Assembly (NCBI GenBank): GCA_021792815.1
Contig: JAJYTX010000160.1
Span: forward strand, 1 to 6,639
DNA from: Pseudomonadota bacterium
GTDB taxonomy: Bacteria; Pseudomonadota; Gammaproteobacteria; Steroidobacterales; Steroidobacteraceae
Reading direction: 5' to 3'
Length of the DNA stretch: 6,639 nucleotides
Shown: piece after piece, positions 1 to 6,639 of the stretch
Layout of the letters: every line of letters starts with the position of its first letter
How positions within the stretch are numbered: the first letter of the stretch is position 1
Notes under the pieces: model-generated
The model's input: the letters and a program-made list of their open reading frames with translations, nothing else
What the model was told of the DNA's origin: nothing
The model's database searches: none
Program-made: the position numbers and the translations under genes

Positions 1-478
1 TCGTATTCGAAGAGATGACCGCCGACGGCGCCACCACCGCTTCGACCTGCGAGAAAATGCGCCGCTTGAGCGCAAGATCTTCCGTGGCCGCCTCGATGAC
101 CCAGTCGCAGCCGGCGAGCGCGCCATAATCGGTGGTCGGCGCAAGGCCGGCGCGAACCGACGCGGCCCGTTCGGCGGAAATCTTCCTGCGTTGCAGGCCC
201 TTCTCGAGGTAACCGTGGATCCGTTCCTGGGCACGCGCCAGCGCCGCCGGCGCGATGTCGACCAGGACCAGCTTCAGTCCTGGAATCTCGCTGGCAAGGT
301 AATACGCGATGTCCGGTCCGATGGTGCCGGCGCCGATGACGCCGACCGAGCGCGGGAGCGTCCGCGATGGACGGATGAGAGCGGGGTTGGCGGGGGTATC
401 TCTCAGACGCACGTCGGCCTCCGTGATCACGTAGGGGAACCCGGCCCTGCGAGCCTGCGGAACCGCCCGGCGTACCAT
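1..478 (-). CDS. 3-hydroxyacyl-CoA dehydrogenase, NAD-binding N-terminal part (partial, runs off left edge)
   Basis: The visible 159 residues form a Rossmann NAD-binding domain of the 3-hydroxyacyl-CoA dehydrogenase family, which oxidises L-3-hydroxyacyl-CoA to 3-oxoacyl-CoA in beta-oxidation-type pathways in the cytoplasm. Reading the minus strand, the dinucleotide loop VGVIGAGTIGPDIAYYL has glycines at residues 49, 51 and 54. The acidic end of strand 2 is LVLVD (Asp74). The family motif CDWVIEAATED follows (Glu129), and the fragment ends in SSNT (156-159), the start of the active-site serine segment. The C-terminal domain lies beyond the edge, so a fused hydratase cannot be excluded. The only upstream ATG (476-478) gives a 45-residue extension ahead of the Rossmann strand, longer than usual. 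GTG codons at residues 17 and 23 are alternative starts, and none has a clear Shine-Dalgarno site. The gene is divergent from cobS and shares its control region. The substrate cannot be read from this piece. Confidence 0.9.
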   Translation of the reverse strand, partial: MVRRAVPQARRAGFPYVITEADVRLRDTPANPALIRPSRTLPRSVGVIGAGTIGPDIAYYLASEIPGLKLVLVDIAPAALARAQERIHGYLEKGLQRRKISAERAASVRAGLAPTTDYGALAGCDWVIEAATEDLALKRRIFSQVEAVVAPSAVISSNT

Positions 479-520
479 GTGTCGGCGACGCTGCGGGCCC
501 GCGCAGTCTTGACAGGATTG

Positions 521-530
521 CTGTGCACAG
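521..530. promoter_or_regulatory. Perfect 10-base palindrome CTGTGCACAG, candidate operator
   Basis: The sequence is identical to its reverse complement and lies exactly between the candidate -35 and -10 boxes of the operon promoter. A repressor or MerR-type regulator binding here would control the operon and could affect the divergent gene. No regulator gene is in the window, so the protein is unknown. Confidence 0.35.
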
Positions 531-534
531 TATA
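529..534 (-). promoter_or_regulatory. Candidate -10 box for the divergent dehydrogenase gene
   Basis: On the minus strand TATACT matches the -10 consensus at five of six positions and overlaps the plus-strand -10 box base for base. No good -35 box lies 16-18 bases upstream; the 12-base palindrome at 547-558 sits about there instead. This would fit an activator-dependent promoter, but that is inference. The leader to the ATG at 478 would be about 45 bases. Confidence 0.3.
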
Positions 535-546
535 CAAGATACGCGG

Positions 547-558
547 ACTTTCGAAAGT
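547..558. promoter_or_regulatory. Perfect 12-base palindrome ACTTTCGAAAGT, candidate operator
   Basis: A fully self-complementary 12-mer lies just downstream of the plus-strand -10 box, around the expected transcription start, and at the -35 distance for the divergent gene. It is AT-richer than its surroundings. It also lies inside the cupin-like frame, where it encodes Thr-Phe-Glu-Ser, so it may be coincidental. Confidence 0.35.
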
Positions 559-634
559 GGGAACCTGCTGTACCTGCCGCCGGCGGTGCACCACGATCGC
601 CCCAGGGCTCCGATGAGCTGCTGCCCGAACACGC

Positions 635-660
635 GCGCGCCCGCCGGTGGCGCGCAGGAA
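635..660 (+). promoter_or_regulatory. cobS ribosome binding site next to a GC hairpin
   Basis: AGGAA (656-660) lies eight bases before the TTG start and is the best Shine-Dalgarno match in the operon. Directly before it, GCGCGC (635-640) and GCGCGC (650-655) can pair around a nine-base loop, so the stem ends where the ribosome site begins. The stem could limit initiation or act as a spacer, and its effect is not visible from sequence alone. Confidence 0.45.
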
Positions 661-668
661 TTCCTCCG

Positions 669-1652
669 TTGACCGACGCCGACGAGCTGCTGCACACCAG
701 GCCCGACAAATCCGTCTCGGCACGCGAGTTCGGCGTGGCGAGCGACATGCAGGTGCCTGCGTTCTCGCATCCGAACGAATATGTCCCCGAGCGGGATCAG
801 ACCTACCGATTCGATCCCGAAACCACCCTGGCGATCCTCGCCGGCTTTGCATTCAACCGCCGCGTGATGGTCCAGGGCTACCACGGCACGGGCAAGTCGA
901 CGCACATTGAGCAGGTTGCCGCAGTCCTCAACTGGCCGCTGATCCGCATCAACCTCGATGGGCACATCAGCCGCTCCGATCTGGTTGGCCGGGATGCGAT
1001 CGTCCTGCGCGACGGCCGCCAGGTGACCGAGTTTCGCGAAGGGCTGCTGCCGTGGGCGCTGCAAAGAGCCGTCGCGCTCACCTTCGACGAATACGACGCC
1101 GGCCGTCCGGACGTGATGTTCGTGATCCAGCGGGTCCTCGAGGCGAACGGCCGGTTCACGCTCGTGGACCAGAACCGCGTCATCAGCCCACATCCTCATT
1201 TCCGGCTGTTCGGCACCGCGAACACGCTCGGGCTCGGTGATGCCACCGGGCTGTATCAGGGCACGCAGCAGATCAACCAGGGACAGATGGACCGCTGGTC
1301 GATCCTGACGACGCTCAATTACCTCGATCACGACGCGGAGGCGGCAATCGTGCTGGCCAAGGCGACGGCGTTCGATACCGATGCCGGCCGCCGCATGATC
1401 ATGGCGATGGTCCGCGTCGCCGACATGACCCGTAACGCGTTCATCAACGGCGATCTCTCTACGGTGATGAGCCCGCGGACGGTGATTACCTGGGCGGAGA
1501 ACACCCAGATTTTTCGGGATGTCGGCCTGGCGTTCCGCATGACGTTTCTGAACAAGTGCGACGAGTCGGAGCGGGCGACTGTTGCCGAGTTCTTTCAGAA
1601 AGCCTTCGACGCCGAGCTGCCTGAAAGCGCCGCGCGCCTCATGGTTGTCTGA
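669..1652 (+). CDS. cobS: CobS, AAA+ ATPase subunit of aerobic-type cobaltochelatase
   Basis: This 327-residue protein matches CobS closely along its whole length, including the N-terminal [20 protein letters not shown] region. CobS forms AAA+ rings that, with CobT, power ATP-dependent cobalt insertion by CobN into hydrogenobyrinic acid a,c-diamide in the cytoplasm. Walker A is GYHGTGKST (residues 70-78, Lys76). Walker B is VALTFDEYD (135-143, Asp140 and Glu141). The sensor segment [12 protein letters not shown] and the MDRWS arginine-finger region are present, and the C-terminal part keeps [19 protein letters not shown]. No key residue is missing, so an active ATPase is expected. The TTG start is chosen because no ATG or GTG lies upstream in frame for over 130 bases, AGGAA precedes it at good spacing, and the length fits the family (about 330). 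CobT follows 17 bases downstream, as is usual. The odd point is the XdhC/MocA neighbourhood without cobN. Confidence 0.95.
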
Positions 1653-1669
1653 CTCCGGACCTCGATCCT

Positions 1670-3667
1670 GTGTCCGAGCGCCAGGCGCCAACCGATCAGC
1701 TCAAGCGCCTGCTCGCGCAGTCGGTACGCGCTCTCGGCGCCAGCCAGGCGGTCACGATCGCGTTCGGCCGCTCCCGACAGGATACCGGCCCAGGCACGCT
1801 GAACCTGCCTGAGCCGCGGCAACCGCTCGACCACGCCGAACTGGCCCGCCTGCGGGGCCACGCCGACCGGCTCGCGCTGCATCTGGCGCATCACGATGCC
1901 GAGTTGCACGAGGTGGGCCGGCCATCCGAGCCGCGGGCGCGCGCCCTGTATGACGCGCTCGAGGAACTCCGCTGCCAGGCGCTCGGCGCACGAGCACTTC
2001 CGGGAGTCGCTCGCAATCTGATGGCCGCGCTTGCCGACGACCTGACACGAACTCAAACCAACCGTACCACAGGTGGCCAGGAGGACACGGAGCGGATCGA
2101 GGCGCTCGTGCTGCTGATCCGCGAACGCCTGACCGGGGCCGCACCGCCGACCGCCGTCGCTGCGCCGCTCGAACGATGGCGCAATGAGCTGCTGGAGTAC
2201 GCCGGAGCGAACATCGCGCGCATGCCGGCGGTCCTGACTGACCAGGAGGCGTTTGCGCGGCTCAGTCACGCTCTGCTGCGCGATCTTCGATTCGCATGCG
2301 ACACGGTGGCGCCAGCAGGCAGTCCGGGTGGGACGGCGCAGCCGCGGGTTTCGGAGCCGCGGGCGATCGCCACGGAGCAGTGCAGCGCACCGATGACCAT
2401 CGCGCCAGACGACCCCCGTCGGTCGCGCGACGAGACGGTGTCCGCGGAAGCGGCGGCGGCACCGGTGGCCGTGCGGGCAGCCGCCGAGCCGCACAATGCG
2501 GAAACGCCTGAGCACAGGGAGCGCCGCGCGGCGCTGTTCCGGGTGGCCGCCGAGCCGCCCGCGGCGGACTTCGACTACCGGATCTACAGCCGCGCGTACG
2601 ACGAGATCCTGCTCCCGGAGCGCGCCTGCGAGCCCGGTGAACTCGGGCGACTCACGGCGATGCTGCGCCACCAGACACAACCGCTCGAGGCGGGACTGGT
2701 CCGACTCGCGAATCGACTTGAGCGGCTGCTGCGCGCACAACAGCGGCGCCGGTGGCGCTTCGACCGGGACGATGGCGTGCTCGACGCCGCACGGCTGAGC
2801 CGCGTGATCGTCGATCCCTCCATGCCGCTCGTCTACAAGGACGAGGAGGACCTGGATTGCAACGATACGGTCGTGACTCTGTTGCTCGACAATTCCGGCT
2901 CGATGCGCGGTCGGCCGATCCTGATGACCGCATTGTGCGCGGACCTGATCTGTCGCACACTCGAGCGCTGCGCGATCAAGGTGGAAATTCTCGGCTACAC
3001 CACCCGGGAATGGAACGGGGGCCGCTCGCGCGACGCCTGGTTGCGCGCCGGATGTCCCCAGCGGCCCGGTCGCTTGAGTGACCTGCGACACGTCATTTAC
3101 AAGGCGGCCGACTCCCCGTGGCGCCGTGCGCGCCACAACCTGGGACTGATGCTACGCGACGAGCTGCTCAAGGAGAACATTGACGGCGAGGCGCTCCTGT
3201 GGGCGCACGGCCGACTATTGCTGCGACGCGAGCGGCGCCGGATTCTTCTGGTAATCAGCGATGGGGTCCCGCTCGATGAATCGACGCTGTCGGAGAACTC
3301 ACACGATTTCCTGGAACGGCATCTGCGCAGCGTCATCCGGTCAATCGAATGCCATTCACCGGTGGAACTCGTGGCGATCGGCGTCGGACACGACGTCACT
3401 CATTTCTACACCCGTGCAACGGTCATTCGGACGGTCGACGAACTCGGCGCCGCCCTCATCGGCCGGCTTGCCGAGCTATTCAGCGCCGAAGCGGCGCCCG
3501 AGCGCGGAGTCCGGCGGAATCCGCCGGCGTCGGGCTCATCCGGGGGAGCCGGACTTCCGGGGTGGGGCATTCGCCGACCCCCTGCCCGTGGAAAAACCAG
3601 CGCCGAGCACCCGGCGGATGCCGCGCGCATCTCACGGCCGGGTCGGACCACCCCGCGCGCGGGTTGA
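1670..3667 (+). CDS. cobT: CobT, von Willebrand factor A subunit of aerobic-type cobaltochelatase
   Basis: This 665-residue protein is the partner of CobS in the chelatase motor. The N-terminal domain (about 1-208) keeps the family pattern ([17 protein letters not shown]-like RERLTG). A linker (about 209-299) follows, then a helical region from residue 300 with [14 protein letters not shown]. The C-terminal VWA domain (about 400-604) has the metal-ion site [15 protein letters not shown] (Asp407, Ser409, Ser411) and ISDG (Asp531). [16 protein letters not shown] and [15 protein letters not shown] are strongly family-typical. Two things are odd. The linker is rich in Ala, Pro and Arg, whereas I recall it as very acidic in the classical protein. 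A further 61-residue Pro/Gly/Arg/Ser tail (605-665) follows the VWA domain, where known CobT ends soon after. The start is GTG with only a weak upstream CCGGA. It lies 17 bases after cobS, so translation is probably coupled. Confidence 0.94.
3511..3527 (+). repeat. Perfect 7-base inverted repeat inside the cobT tail
   Basis: CCGGCGG and CCGCCGG flank AAT and form a tight, very GC-rich hairpin within the coding sequence for the extra CobT tail. No T-run follows, so it is not a classical intrinsic terminator. It may slow transcription or translation, or simply reflect base composition. Confidence 0.35.
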
Positions 3668-3721
3668 CGGATGTCCCGCAACCGATTGCCCCGGAACCGA
3701 CACGCCGTGTAGCATCAAGCG

Positions 3722-4795
3722 ATGGAATTCAACCTCGGACCGCTGTTCCCGTTGCTCAACCGCGAGCGCTCGGCCGGACGGGCGATGGCGCTCGGGATCC
3801 TGCTCGACACCGCCGGGTCGACCTATGCCAGGCCCGGGGCCCTGCTGCTGATTGCCCAGGATGGCGAGTATGCCGGGCTGATCTCGGGTGGCTGTCTGGA
3901 AGGGGATCTCGCCGAACACGCCCAGGCGGTCATCGATTCCGGCGAGGCGCGGCGGGTCAACTACGATCTGCGCAATCCGGATGATCTGGTATGGGGTCTG
4001 GGCTCCGGCTGCGAGGGAGCGATGCACATCCTATTGGTGCGTGTCGGACCCGTTGAGGACTGGCAGCCGCTGGAGCATCTCTCGGCGGCTTTCGCAGCCG
4101 GCACGCCTACCGCGATCGGCATCGTCACGGAATCCCATGACACGAGGATACTGACCGGCTCCTGCCTGCTGCCCGACTCCGACATGAGTCAGCTCCTCCC
4201 CAGCCTGGAGCGACGGGTTTTCGACGCGGCCAGTCATGCGCCCGCTCCCGGCTGGTTCGAAGACCCCGGCCGCTGCCGGGTGTTTCTGCTGCCGCTCATC
4301 ATGCCGCCGCGACTGTTGCTGCTCGGCGCGGGCCCCGACGCACGGCCGGTGTGCCAATTCGCTGCGCAACTGTACTGGCAGGTGACGCTCGCGGATCATC
4401 GGCCCGCCTTTGCGGTCGCCACCCGGTTTCCGGCGGCCGAGCGGCTCGTCATCGTCCGTCCGGAAGCGCTGTCGGAGTCGCTCGATCTGGCGCGATTCCA
4501 CGCGGCCGTGGTCATGAGTCACCACCTGGAATCCGACAGAGAGTACCTGCGGGCGCTGGCGCGCAGCGAACTGCCTTATGTCGGACTGCTCGGACCTGCG
4601 GCACGCAGAGACAAACTCCTGGCGCAATTGGGCTCCGATGCGCAGCGCCTGCGCACCCGGCTGCGTGCGCCAGTCGGTCTCGACCTCGGCGGGCGTGCTC
4701 CGCCAGCCATCGCGCTGAGCATCGTGGCCGAAATCCTGGAATTTCTCCAGGGCCGCTCGGGCGGTGCCGTCTCCTCCAGCCGTGAGGCGGGCTGA
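3722..4795 (+). CDS. xdhC: XdhC/CoxI family molybdenum hydroxylase maturation protein
   Basis: This 357-residue protein belongs to the XdhC/CoxI family. Members bind molybdenum cofactor, promote its sulfuration and hand it to xanthine-oxidase-type hydroxylases in the cytoplasm. The N-terminal domain has AGSTYARPGALLLI, then SGGCLEGDL (Cys58) and GSGCEGAMHILL (Cys97), the two cysteine motifs of the family. The C-terminal Rossmann domain has LLLLGAGPDARPV (Gly202, Gly204, Asp206), VVMSHHLESDREYL, YVGLLGPAARRDKLL and the typical end GLDLGGRAPPAIALSIVAEI. Both domains are on one chain, so this is the full-length form. The ATG is chosen because the family homology begins just after it. No strong Shine-Dalgarno site is seen. 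It lies 54 bases after cobT and 60 before the nucleotidyltransferase, in the same direction. It may serve an enzyme encoded elsewhere. The symbol follows the family, and the client enzyme is unknown. Confidence 0.92.
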   Translation: MEFNLGPLFPLLNRERSAGRAMALGILLDTAGSTYARPGALLLIAQDGEYAGLISGGCLEGDLAEHAQAVIDSGEARRVNYDLRNPDDLVWGLGSGCEGAMHILLVRVGPVEDWQPLEHLSAAFAAGTPTAIGIVTESHDTRILTGSCLLPDSDMSQLLPSLERRVFDAASHAPAPGWFEDPGRCRVFLLPLIMPPRLLLLGAGPDARPVCQFAAQLYWQVTLADHRPAFAVATRFPAAERLVIVRPEALSESLDLARFHAAVVMSHHLESDREYLRALARSELPYVGLLGPAARRDKLLAQLGSDAQRLRTRLRAPVGLDLGGRAPPAIALSIVAEILEFLQGRSGGAVSSSREAG

Positions 4796-4855
4796 GTCGC
4801 CAGCCCACACCGGGGCCCGCGGGCGAGCCGCCTCGCCACGCGACACGGCGGCGGC

Positions 4856-5467
4856 GTGAGCGACGATATCGAGCTGCACGCTCTGGTGCTCGCCGCCGGT
4901 GCCGCGAGTCGTTTCGGCGGGTTGAAACAACTGGTGACCCTCGAGGGTCGACCGCTGCTGCGTGGCGTTGCCGATCGCGCGGCTGCGGTCGCCGACCGGA
5001 CATGGGTGGTGCTCGGGGCAAGGGCAGCCGAAATCGCGCCGGTCCTGGCAGAGTGCCCGGTTTCAGTGCTCATCAATCCACTGTGGTCCGAGGGGCTCGC
5101 CAGTTCGATCCGAACCGGCATCGCCCAGCTGCCACCCTCGTGCGACGCCGTGCTGTTGCTGCTGGCCGATCAGGCCCGCGTCCGTGGCGAGGACCTGCGG
5201 CGACTGGCTTCGATGTGGAGACGCCGGCCTCAGGGTATCGCGGCAGCCCAGCATGGGACCGTAGTGGGCGTGCCGGCAATCTTCCCCCGGTCACTGTTTG
5301 CCGAGCTTTCGCAACTGGCAGGCGACGTCGGTGCCCGGGGCATCATCGCCCGCCACACCAGCCAGGTCACGAGCGTGCCCATGCCCAATGCCGCGTTCGA
5401 CCTGGACACCCCCGCGGACCTGTCATCCCTGACGAGCAGTGCCGGCCCTGATCGGCATTCGAGCTGA
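4856..5467 (+). CDS. mocA: MocA-type molybdopterin cytidylyltransferase family protein
   Basis: This 203-residue protein is a MobA-like nucleotidyltransferase of the MocA branch, which joins CMP from CTP to Mo-molybdopterin to give the cytosine dinucleotide cofactor used by xanthine-oxidase-family enzymes. The nucleotide-binding signature LAAGAASRFGGLK spans residues 12-24 (Lys24). NPLWSEGLASS (74-84), LLLLADQ with metal-binding Asp105, GVPAIFPRSLFAEL (138-151), GDVGARGII and FDLDTPADL (181-189) follow in the usual order. Length agrees with E. coli MocA (about 190). The GTG start is the only usable one; no start lies upstream in frame within the 60-base gap after xdhC, and its ribosome site is weak. 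Pairing with XdhC is typical, because XdhC-type proteins and this enzyme act in succession on the same cofactor. Choice of CTP over GTP is inferred from family and context. Related proteins without proven cofactor activity exist in the same family. Confidence 0.87.
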   Translation: MSDDIELHALVLAAGAASRFGGLKQLVTLEGRPLLRGVADRAAAVADRTWVVLGARAAEIAPVLAECPVSVLINPLWSEGLASSIRTGIAQLPPSCDAVLLLLADQARVRGEDLRRLASMWRRRPQGIAAAQHGTVVGVPAIFPRSLFAELSQLAGDVGARGIIARHTSQVTSVPMPNAAFDLDTPADLSSLTSSAGPDRHSS

Positions 5468-5615
5468 AATGCCCCGGCCCGACTTCCGCCTGACGCGTGC
5501 GGCAGACCGATCGATCGTGCTCGGGCTGATGAGGATCGGACCGTGGTCAGCGTGAGCACGCAGTCCACCCGTGTCCGTCGATCATCCGGACATCCGCTGT
5601 GAGTCGAACCGGGGG

Positions 5616-5645
5616 CAGAGGCCGCATCTGGCTCACAAGCCTCTG
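5616..5645 (+). terminator. Inverted repeat CAGAGGC/GCCTCTG, possible end of the operon
   Basis: A perfect seven-base stem (5616-5622 with 5639-5645) encloses 16 bases and is followed on the plus strand by ATTCATAT, a poor U-tract. It lies about 150 bases after mocA and faces the oncoming tRNA transcript. It could be a weak terminator or an RNA-stabilising end. TGTGAG (5598-5603) and CTCACA (5632-5637) form a second, overlapping pairing. Confidence 0.3.
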
Positions 5646-5665
5646 ATTCATATCGCGATAATCAG
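5643..5665. repeat. Imperfect palindrome centred on TATCGCGATA
   Basis: TATCGCGATA (5651-5660) is a perfect ten-base palindrome. CTGAT (5643-5647) and ATCAG (5661-5665) extend it as outer arms, with a three-base bulge TCA on the left. It is unusually AT-rich for the region and could be a protein-binding site or RNA hairpin. ATCAG also takes part in the stem described at 5661-5703, so the two structures exclude each other. Confidence 0.35.
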
Positions 5666-5703
5666 CATGGGAGAAACGCGCCGGTAAGCCGGGGCACGCT
5701 GAT
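5661..5703 (-). terminator. Structured trailer downstream of tRNA-Ala
   Basis: Starting seven bases after the encoded CCA, the minus strand reads ATCAGCGTG (5703-5695) and, after an inner CCGG-CTTA-CCGG hairpin, CATGCTGAT (5669-5661). These nine bases can pair with one G-U. No U-run follows, so this is probably a processing or Rho-dependent end and not an intrinsic terminator. Confidence 0.3.
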
Positions 5704-5709
5704 CGGGGG

Positions 5710-5785
<76 letters not shown>

Positions 5786-5800
5786 ACGGCGGAGGGCGCG

Positions 5801-5829
5801 AAGGTACGTAAGGCGCGCCGTGCTGTCAA
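5801..5829 (-). promoter_or_regulatory. Promoter of tRNA-Ala with GC-rich discriminator
   Basis: On the minus strand a perfect TTGACA (5829-5824) is followed by an exact 17-base spacer and TACCTT (5806-5801), a -10 box matching at three positions including the key TA and final T. The start would fall near 5793, about eight bases before the tRNA. The discriminator CGCGCCC is very GC-rich, a feature of stable-RNA promoters under stringent control. This gives the tRNA its own transcription independent of gltX. Confidence 0.7.
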
Positions 5830-5902
5830 GATATGAAAACAGTATCCGCGACATGCCTCCAGGCGACCCATTCGCATCAGGGAAGCCGCAAAGCGGTCGG
5901 AA

Positions 5903-6639
5903 TCAACCGGCAGAAGCGCCGCCCAGTGCCGCCTCCAGTCGCGCGAGTGTGCGCTGCCGTCCCAGCAGCTCCAGCGTCAGGTCGATCGGCGGTGAGACCG
6001 CCGTACCGGTGACGGCCACCCGCAACGGCTGGGCCACCTTGCCGAGTCCCGCTCCGAGCGTCGTGGCCAACTCATGCAGCGCCGCATGGATCCCGGGCGC
6101 CGTCCAATCCGGCAGCGCCACGAGGCGCTCGCGCACCTTCGCGAGCATCCCGAGTCCCTCGCCCGAGAGATGCCGGGCTGCGGCCTTGGGCTCAATGTCC
6201 ACCGTCTCGGTGAAGAAAAACCGGCTGTTCTGCGCCATTTCCTTCAACGTCTTGGCGCGCTCCCGCTGCGAAACGATGATGCCTTCGAGCAACCGCTGAT
6301 CATCGCTATCGAGCCCCAGGCGGCGCAGCTGCGCGCGCAGGTAAGGCACCAGGGCCGCCGGCTGCGCCCGCATCATGTGCTGCTGGTTGAGCCACAGAAG
6401 CTTGTCGGGATTGAACGCCGAGGCAGCCTTGCCGACATCCCTGATGTCGAAGGCCGCGATCATTTCCTCGCGCGTGAAGACTTCCTGGTCGCCACGGGAC
6501 CAGCCGAGGCGCACCAGGTAGTTGAGCAGCGCGTCCGGCAGGTACCCCTCCTCCTCGTACTGCAGCACGCTCACCGCGCCGTGCCGCTTCGACAGCTTGG
6601 CCCCATCGGGACCGAGGATCATGGGCACGTGCGCATACA
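5903..6639 (-). CDS. gltX: Glutamyl-tRNA synthetase, C-terminal part (partial, runs off right edge)
   Basis: The visible 245 residues are the C-terminal half of GltX, the class I synthetase that charges tRNA-Glu with glutamate in the cytoplasm. The fragment opens with YAHVPMILGPDGAKLSKRHGA, which holds the KMSKS-type signature (KLSKR) of the catalytic domain. It continues with YLPDALLNYLVRLGWS and the helical anticodon-binding domain (FNPDKLLWLNQQHM; RAKTLKEMAQNSRFFF). It ends in the family-typical VAVTGTAVSPPIDLTLELLGRQRTLARL close to the stop. The upstream catalytic fold, including the HIGH motif, lies outside the window. The sequence looks intact with no missing motif. It is followed on the same strand by tRNA-Ala; only a weak hairpin (CCGC-TTT-GCGG, 5896-5886) lies between, so some read-through into the tRNA is possible. 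Confidence 0.97.
   Translation of the reverse strand, partial: YAHVPMILGPDGAKLSKRHGAVSVLQYEEEGYLPDALLNYLVRLGWSRGDQEVFTREEMIAAFDIRDVGKAASAFNPDKLLWLNQQHMMRAQPAALVPYLRAQLRRLGLDSDDQRLLEGIIVSQRERAKTLKEMAQNSRFFFTETVDIEPKAAARHLSGEGLGMLAKVRERLVALPDWTAPGIHAALHELATTLGAGLGKVAQPLRVAVTGTAVSPPIDLTLELLGRQRTLARLEAALGGASAG

Follow-up and report, generated by a model that had tools for sequence, protein, structure and literature searches.

A CobS-CobT pair beside xdhC-mocA genes in Steroidobacterales, a motor that very likely works without CobN

Introduction

What does a cobaltochelatase-type motor do when it stands beside genes for the molybdenum cofactor and apart from any gene for the chelatase itself? The question is raised by a 6,639-nucleotide stretch of contig JAJYTX010000160.1 (assembly GCA_021792815.1, Steroidobacteraceae), the whole of which is referred to here as the window, where open reading frame (ORF) coordinates confirm that cobS, cobT, xdhC and a mocA-type gene are encoded one after another on the + strand, 17, 54 and 60 bases apart. 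Neither cobN nor any molybdenum hydroxylase subunit gene lies within these 6.6 kb. The presence of CobS and CobT is commonly taken as a sign of aerobic B12 synthesis. XdhC sulfurates and MocA cytidylylates the molybdenum cofactor, and MoxR-type AAA+/VWA pairs such as CbbQO and NorQD activate metalloenzymes. As far as the consulted parts of the sources go, CobS is an ATP-driven ring and CobT its VWA-bearing partner (PMC7689651), and CoxD and CoxE act on carbon monoxide (CO) dehydrogenase (PMC4240915). A preliminary description of this DNA had proposed that CobST may serve here as the motor for a molybdenum enzyme, alone or in addition to cobalt insertion. The reading that we find probable, if only on balance, is that of a CobN-independent AAA+/VWA motor of alphaproteobacterial descent to which an ordinary xdhC-mocA pair was added late, and whose client is a candidate only.

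Results and Discussion

No CobN found in CobST-bearing relatives

The two motor proteins appear intact. Window CobS scored 591 against the equivalog model TIGR01650 (cut-off 558.6), and its residues 9–325 align to PDB chain 9ujv_A with GYHGTGKST and FDEYDAG retained, while CobT (CobT_C domain score 291 bits in Pfam) aligns over residues 8–616 to chain 9uka_G and retains DNSGSMRG. We take these motifs to be a P-loop in CobS and a DxSxS-type, MIDAS-type motif in CobT. Against its own equivalog model, TIGR01651, window CobT reached 626 and stayed below the cut-off of 759, as did those of six Steroidobacterales relatives (584–719) and the divergent copy of genome G861 (293); three alphaproteobacterial-type CobTs passed it (834–985).

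Steroidobacterales genomes, 196 relatives of genome G785, gave 18 matches to CobT (E ≤ 1e-6): 17 were genes, some of which run off their contig, and the other was a remnant in G785 itself. The CobN/BchH family model PF02514, which cannot separate the two proteins, matched in three of the 17 CobT-bearing genomes (G846, G826 and G861). These were rejected as CobN candidates, all scoring as the magnesium-chelatase subunit BchH; the G861 matches were two fragments, one scanned and the second not. With BchH told apart, and that one G861 fragment unscanned, none of the 17 CobST-bearing relatives showed CobN, which bears out the CobN-free part of the original proposal. The same search in nine relatives lacking CobST returned three PF02514 matches, CobN in G785 and G945 and BchH in G818. 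The CobN of G785 lies in a B12 cluster (locus L242) with CbiJ/CobK and CbiD, beside a fused ChlI/ChlD-type motor (770.6 bits against TIGR02442, cut-off 779.45), and cobST has decayed in this genome. In this order the inference from CobS and CobT to B12 synthesis fails: CobN was seen in none of the 17 genomes with CobST, and the nearest relative that has a B12 cluster keeps its CobN by a different motor, with cobST decayed.

In a wider sample of the phylum, 72 genomes with full-length CobT (of 129 found) were tested, of which 55 had a PF02514 match and 17 had none; among genomes with partial CobT the match was missing in four of eight. Given that PF02514 does not discriminate, 59 of 80 is an upper bound for the presence of CobN, and 17 of 72 full-length plus four of eight partial cases a lower bound for its absence. 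A second CobT-like type, with a match that starts at about residue 176 or later and 29–37% identity, was seen in eight genomes (G202, G261, G328, G255 and four others), four of which gave no PF02514 match. Altogether it is very likely that the CobST lineage of Steroidobacterales works without CobN, a conclusion that rests on the relatives and not on the window's own genome. Without CobN, either CobST has another target or it is idle.

CobST and XdhC-MocA are distributed independently

In all 24 loci with the closest XdhC, mocA stands behind xdhC on the same strand, 23–1927 bases apart, and nine of them hold a molybdenum-subunit-cluster gene in the same fetched locus, a call confirmed by Pfam for L163 only (Fer2_2 and MoCoBD) and made by cluster for the rest. 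The window shares this order with the accessory pairs of xanthine-oxidase-family hydroxylases, but it has cobST ahead of the pair, and gltX behind it instead of hydroxylase subunits. CobT was absent from 23 of these 24 genomes and left only a remnant in G785; a CobT search of 40 genomes had matches in G785 and G925 only. There is no association of CobT with XdhC, since XdhC (E ≤ 1e-30) was present in nine of 12 CobT-bearing genomes versus 230 of 296 overall (hand count; the sample membership of genomes without a match was inferred from handle numbers). As XdhC and MocA need no CobST elsewhere, their ordinary roles suffice. A MoCoBD_2 protein occurs in 16 of the 17 CobST-bearing relatives, the other being G867, which carries CobST with neither an XdhC nor a MoCoBD_2 match (its place in the XdhC sample is inferred), an observation that cuts both ways.

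Adjacency tells much the same. Within the available flanks, neither xdhC nor mocA was found near cobT in any of 80 alphaproteobacterial-type loci (65 of them with flanks of 3 kb or more at each end) or in any of the 17 Steroidobacterales loci. The usual neighbours of alphaproteobacterial-type cobT, judged from one representative locus, are DnaJ, BolA, dehydroquinate synthase, a phytase-like esterase and ribosomal protein L28, and G760 has the window's order of hcdh (3-hydroxyacyl-CoA dehydrogenase, CoA being coenzyme A), cobS and cobT, but without xdhC. The cobST-xdhC-mocA linkage is confined to a small lineage. The proposed link of CobST to molybdenum enzymes is weak and at large not supported, and what survives of it is a possible lineage-specific link.

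Several observations weigh against a late join to an ordinary pair and against a motor free of CobN. The CobT P0002 (82% identity to the window) and the MocA P0241 (92%) have the same longest contig size, 16,991 bases, so that one close metagenome contig probably has these genes side by side as well, and the XdhC cluster P0121 has members on six contigs. In three of the 17 Steroidobacterales loci (G417, G1058 and G1047) the contig stops 260 bases or less past the 3' end of cobT. In G785 an N-terminal remnant of cobT is directly followed by a frame-broken xdhC, beside hcdh, and a three-subunit molybdenum hydroxylase adjoins these remnants. Moreover, the relatives are draft assemblies of unstated completeness, and the window's own genome may hold a CobN, the search having covered relatives.

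We considered and rejected the idea that only the window has this adjacency. It had relied on P0002 and P0003 being without xdhC, as inferred from the XdhC list; for P0002 this became untenable after the MocA search, given that sequences more than 90% identical are merged in the database clusters. For the other CobT, P0003 (76% identity, longest contig 68,731 bases), no MocA cluster of at least 87% identity was found on so long a contig, and a link is not evident. The decayed G785 locus (L187, 3–9370) has no cobS and carries, behind hcdh, a methylmalonyl-CoA-type mutase, the flavin adenine dinucleotide (FAD), 2Fe-2S and molybdenum subunits, a CoA transferase and a thiolase; together with hcdh/enoyl-CoA hydratase, this cluster looks like a CoA-thioester catabolic pathway. 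In the XdhC tree, the window falls outside a 23-row clade (support 98) where the G785 remnant groups with many unlinked XdhCs, so the joins in the window and in G785 may be independent. The genes may have come together once, long ago, with later losses, or on two occasions.

An alternative is that the lineage uses CobST as the motor that matures a molybdenum hydroxylase, the way CoxD/CoxE do for CO dehydrogenase, and that XdhC and MocA are its partners within a single operon. The probably shared contig, the joint decay of cobT and xdhC in G785 beside hydroxylase subunits, and the MoCoBD_2 count speak for it, as do the tight spacing and the lack, in a crude scan, of terminator-like sites in the three gaps (the same kind of scan found no promoter-like sites in 400–5950). 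In the known system, so far as the consulted portion of PMC4240915 describes it, AAA+ and VWA proteins likewise occur beside an XdhC-related gene. Unlike CoxE, window CobT matches CobT and CobT_C and has no match to PF05762 (VWA_CoxE) at E ≤ 0.001; the window holds no molybdenum hydroxylase, the adjacency is not general, and the near-complete absence of CobT from the closest-XdhC genomes, the case of G867 and the position of the window in the XdhC tree argue in the same direction. We regard a molybdenum hydroxylase as an unlikely client, and a different or variable client as more likely.

Descent of CobT and loss of its acidic linker

A quick CobT tree, built with 20 of the 80 loci from the alphaproteobacterial group and 35 out of 119 further database matches, placed the window inside alphaproteobacterial CobT, in a 46-row clade (support 100) made up of the window, 12 Steroidobacterales and 33 database proteins; the window's own clade has six members (support 99). 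The Steroidobacterales CobST is best read from this tree as one acquisition of alphaproteobacterial descent, the taxa of most database proteins in the clade not being given.

Between the N-terminal and VWA domains, at about residues 212–300, CobT carries a linker that has turned from acidic to neutral or basic in the window's lineage, the flanking domains being little changed. Its mean net charge is -29.8 (-41 to -13) in 109 alphaproteobacterial-type CobTs (80 loci and 29 from further genomes), -9.2 in 11 Steroidobacterales CobTs and +4.4 (-2 to +11) in 12 proteins of the window's wider clade, and the mean charges of the two flanking domains differ by 7 units or less. One row without linker letters in the alignment (L101) was omitted from the 109-row count and entered as 0 in a 110-row count. 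Between the window and P0002 the VWA domain is 90% and the linker 69% identical. We rejected the idea that the acidic linker is tied to CobN: alphaproteobacterial-type CobTs without a PF02514 match still have linkers of -22 to -33 (9 rows), so the absence of CobN alone does not explain the loss.

The linker also bears on a further alternative, in which CobST does no more than drive a CobN encoded elsewhere for aerobic B12 synthesis and stands beside xdhC by chance. With the aerobic cobaltochelatase CobNST (9ujv, 9uka) the window pair shares a nearly full-length alignment of both subunits, the nucleotide-binding and MIDAS-type motifs and a CobS above the equivalog cut-off, and most full-length CobT genomes of the phylum sample (55 of 72) do contain a CobN/BchH-family protein, although PF02514 does not tell which. 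On the other hand, 17 of the 72 have neither protein, the CobST-bearing relatives have no CobN, and two of the nine control relatives that lack CobST do have it, in G785 beside its own ChlID-type motor. Window CobT, moreover, lies under its equivalog cut-off with a linker about neutral instead of about -30 in net charge. An unlinked CobN is on this evidence quite improbable. Less probable still is that CobST is being lost as a dispensable relic, with no present function at the locus, as the decay in G785 (no cobS, an N-terminal cobT remnant, a frame-broken xdhC) and the fast divergence of CobT, most of it in the linker (82% identity to P0002 against 92% for MocA), might suggest, for the window's cobS and cobT frames are open with motif residues kept, the conservation of the VWA domain relative to the linker looks like purifying selection, and CobST has been retained in 17 relatives.

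A candidate role for CobST

Under the reading of a CobN-independent motor joined late to an ordinary pair, Steroidobacterales would have acquired an intact CobS-CobT motor, an AAA+ ring and its VWA partner, and the motor would work independently of CobN. In the small lineage of the window, an xdhC-mocA pair would then have come to stand behind it, presumably to cytidylylate and sulfurate the molybdenum cofactor of a xanthine-oxidase-family hydroxylase. By analogy with other MoxR-type AAA+/VWA pairs, CobST in this order most likely remodels or activates a client oxidoreductase, which may differ between lineages; the xdhC join would then be a late neighbourhood effect within a catabolic gene cluster, and not a conserved CobST-molybdenum system. 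A bolder version, which we hold to be doubtful, is that CobST in this order has parted from cobaltochelatase altogether and now serves as a general activator, free of CobN, for catabolic oxidoreductases that depend on a metal or cofactor, its wiring differing by lineage (molybdenum hydroxylase here, hydroquinone dioxygenase and betaine-demethylation/aldehyde-dehydrogenase operons in relatives), with the loss of the acidic linker marking the change.

Motor pairs without a large subunit have been described before. Within the consulted sections of the sources, ChlI/ChlD are known without ChlH/CobN, their function being called unclear (PMC9227772), and viral CobST has been proposed to borrow the CobN of the host (PMC8651126). 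The window resembles both in lacking the large subunit, but here it is a cellular CobST that stands beside catabolic genes. A search of the open-access literature found no report of CobST with XdhC or with hydroquinone dioxygenase. Should CobST prove to have clients beyond CobN, this well-studied ATP-driven chelatase motor would become a test case for the re-use of AAA+/VWA pairs, for which the hydroquinone dioxygenase and aldehyde dehydrogenase operons offer concrete candidate clients.

Other CobST neighbourhoods

The neighbours of CobST vary by lineage and are mostly catabolic oxidoreductases (aldehyde dehydrogenase, betaine-demethylation enzymes, hydroquinone dioxygenase). Pfam confirmed an aldehyde dehydrogenase gene immediately ahead of cobS in G867, G1047, G861 and G915; other cases were assigned by similarity clusters only. 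In CobN-less Steroidobacterales, the order aldehyde dehydrogenase-cobS-cobT was seen near MttB-like methyltransferase and DMGDH-like genes at loci L221 (G867), L231 (G1047), L219, L220 and L223–L225, with Pfam run on some of their genes only; the G867 locus itself holds MttB and DMGDH-like genes.

Separately, a divergent CobST (CobT 33–40% identical to that of the window) occurs in an operon-like row with a hydroquinone 1,2-dioxygenase-type gene, an aldehyde dehydrogenase and Dabb at L229 (G861), L227 (G915), L228 (G925) and L230 (G826), the domains being confirmed in L229, partly in L227, and assigned by similarity clusters in the rest. The order in L229 is hydroquinone dioxygenase large subunit (PF18191), aldehyde dehydrogenase, cobS, cobT and Dabb, and dioxygenase-type gene clusters are common to G915, G925 and G826.

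Gene content of the window

Features of the window, with coordinates in the 6,639-nucleotide stretch
Feature	Position	Strand	Evidence
hcdh, 5' part (3-hydroxyacyl-CoA dehydrogenase), divergent from cobS, cut by window edge	2..616	-	PF02737
cobS, AAA+ motor subunit, 327 aa, TTG start	669..1652	+	ORF, Pfam CobS_N and AAA_5, NCBIfam TIGR01650
cobT, N-terminal domain, linker and VWA domain, 665 aa	1670..3667	+	PF06213 (CobT), PF11775 (CobT_C), TIGR01651
xdhC-type maturation factor, 357 aa	3722..4795	+	PF02625 (XdhC_CoxI), PF13478 (XdhC_C)
mocA-type MobA-like nucleotidyltransferase, 203 aa	4856..5467	+	PF12804 (NTP_transf_3), TIGR03310
tRNA-Ala (ggc), right boundary of block	5710..5785	-	tRNA call
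gltX, C-terminal part (glutamate-tRNA ligase), cut by window edge	5903..6637	-	TIGR00464, 203.5 bits

The TTG start of cobS is supported by the match to most relatives, which begins at residue 1, and CobS copies in Steroidobacterales loci L197–L207 are 73–83% identical to that of the window. Window XdhC exceeds the Pfam cut-offs of both its domains (XdhC_CoxI 69.5 bits, XdhC_C 114.3 bits) and stays below the equivalog model TIGR02964 (63.7, cut-off 161.6) and the AOR factor model of NCBIfam (126, cut-off 350). Its identity to XdhC in 24 Steroidobacterales genomes is 51–66%, against only 36–43% in 53 genomes of a different order, and its closest database matches are Steroidobacteraceae wherever they are named. 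A gltX comparison over 15 genomes had its best match in G417, at 60%. The mocA product, with relatives at 92% and 87% identity, has as its top listed NCBIfam model the molybdenum cofactor cytidylyltransferase TIGR03310, at 118.7 under a cut-off of 186.45. At the left edge, hcdh is 88% identical to its counterpart in G785 and 82% to that in G760, adjoining cobT or cobS in both, and in G760 it is fused to an enoyl-CoA hydratase domain.

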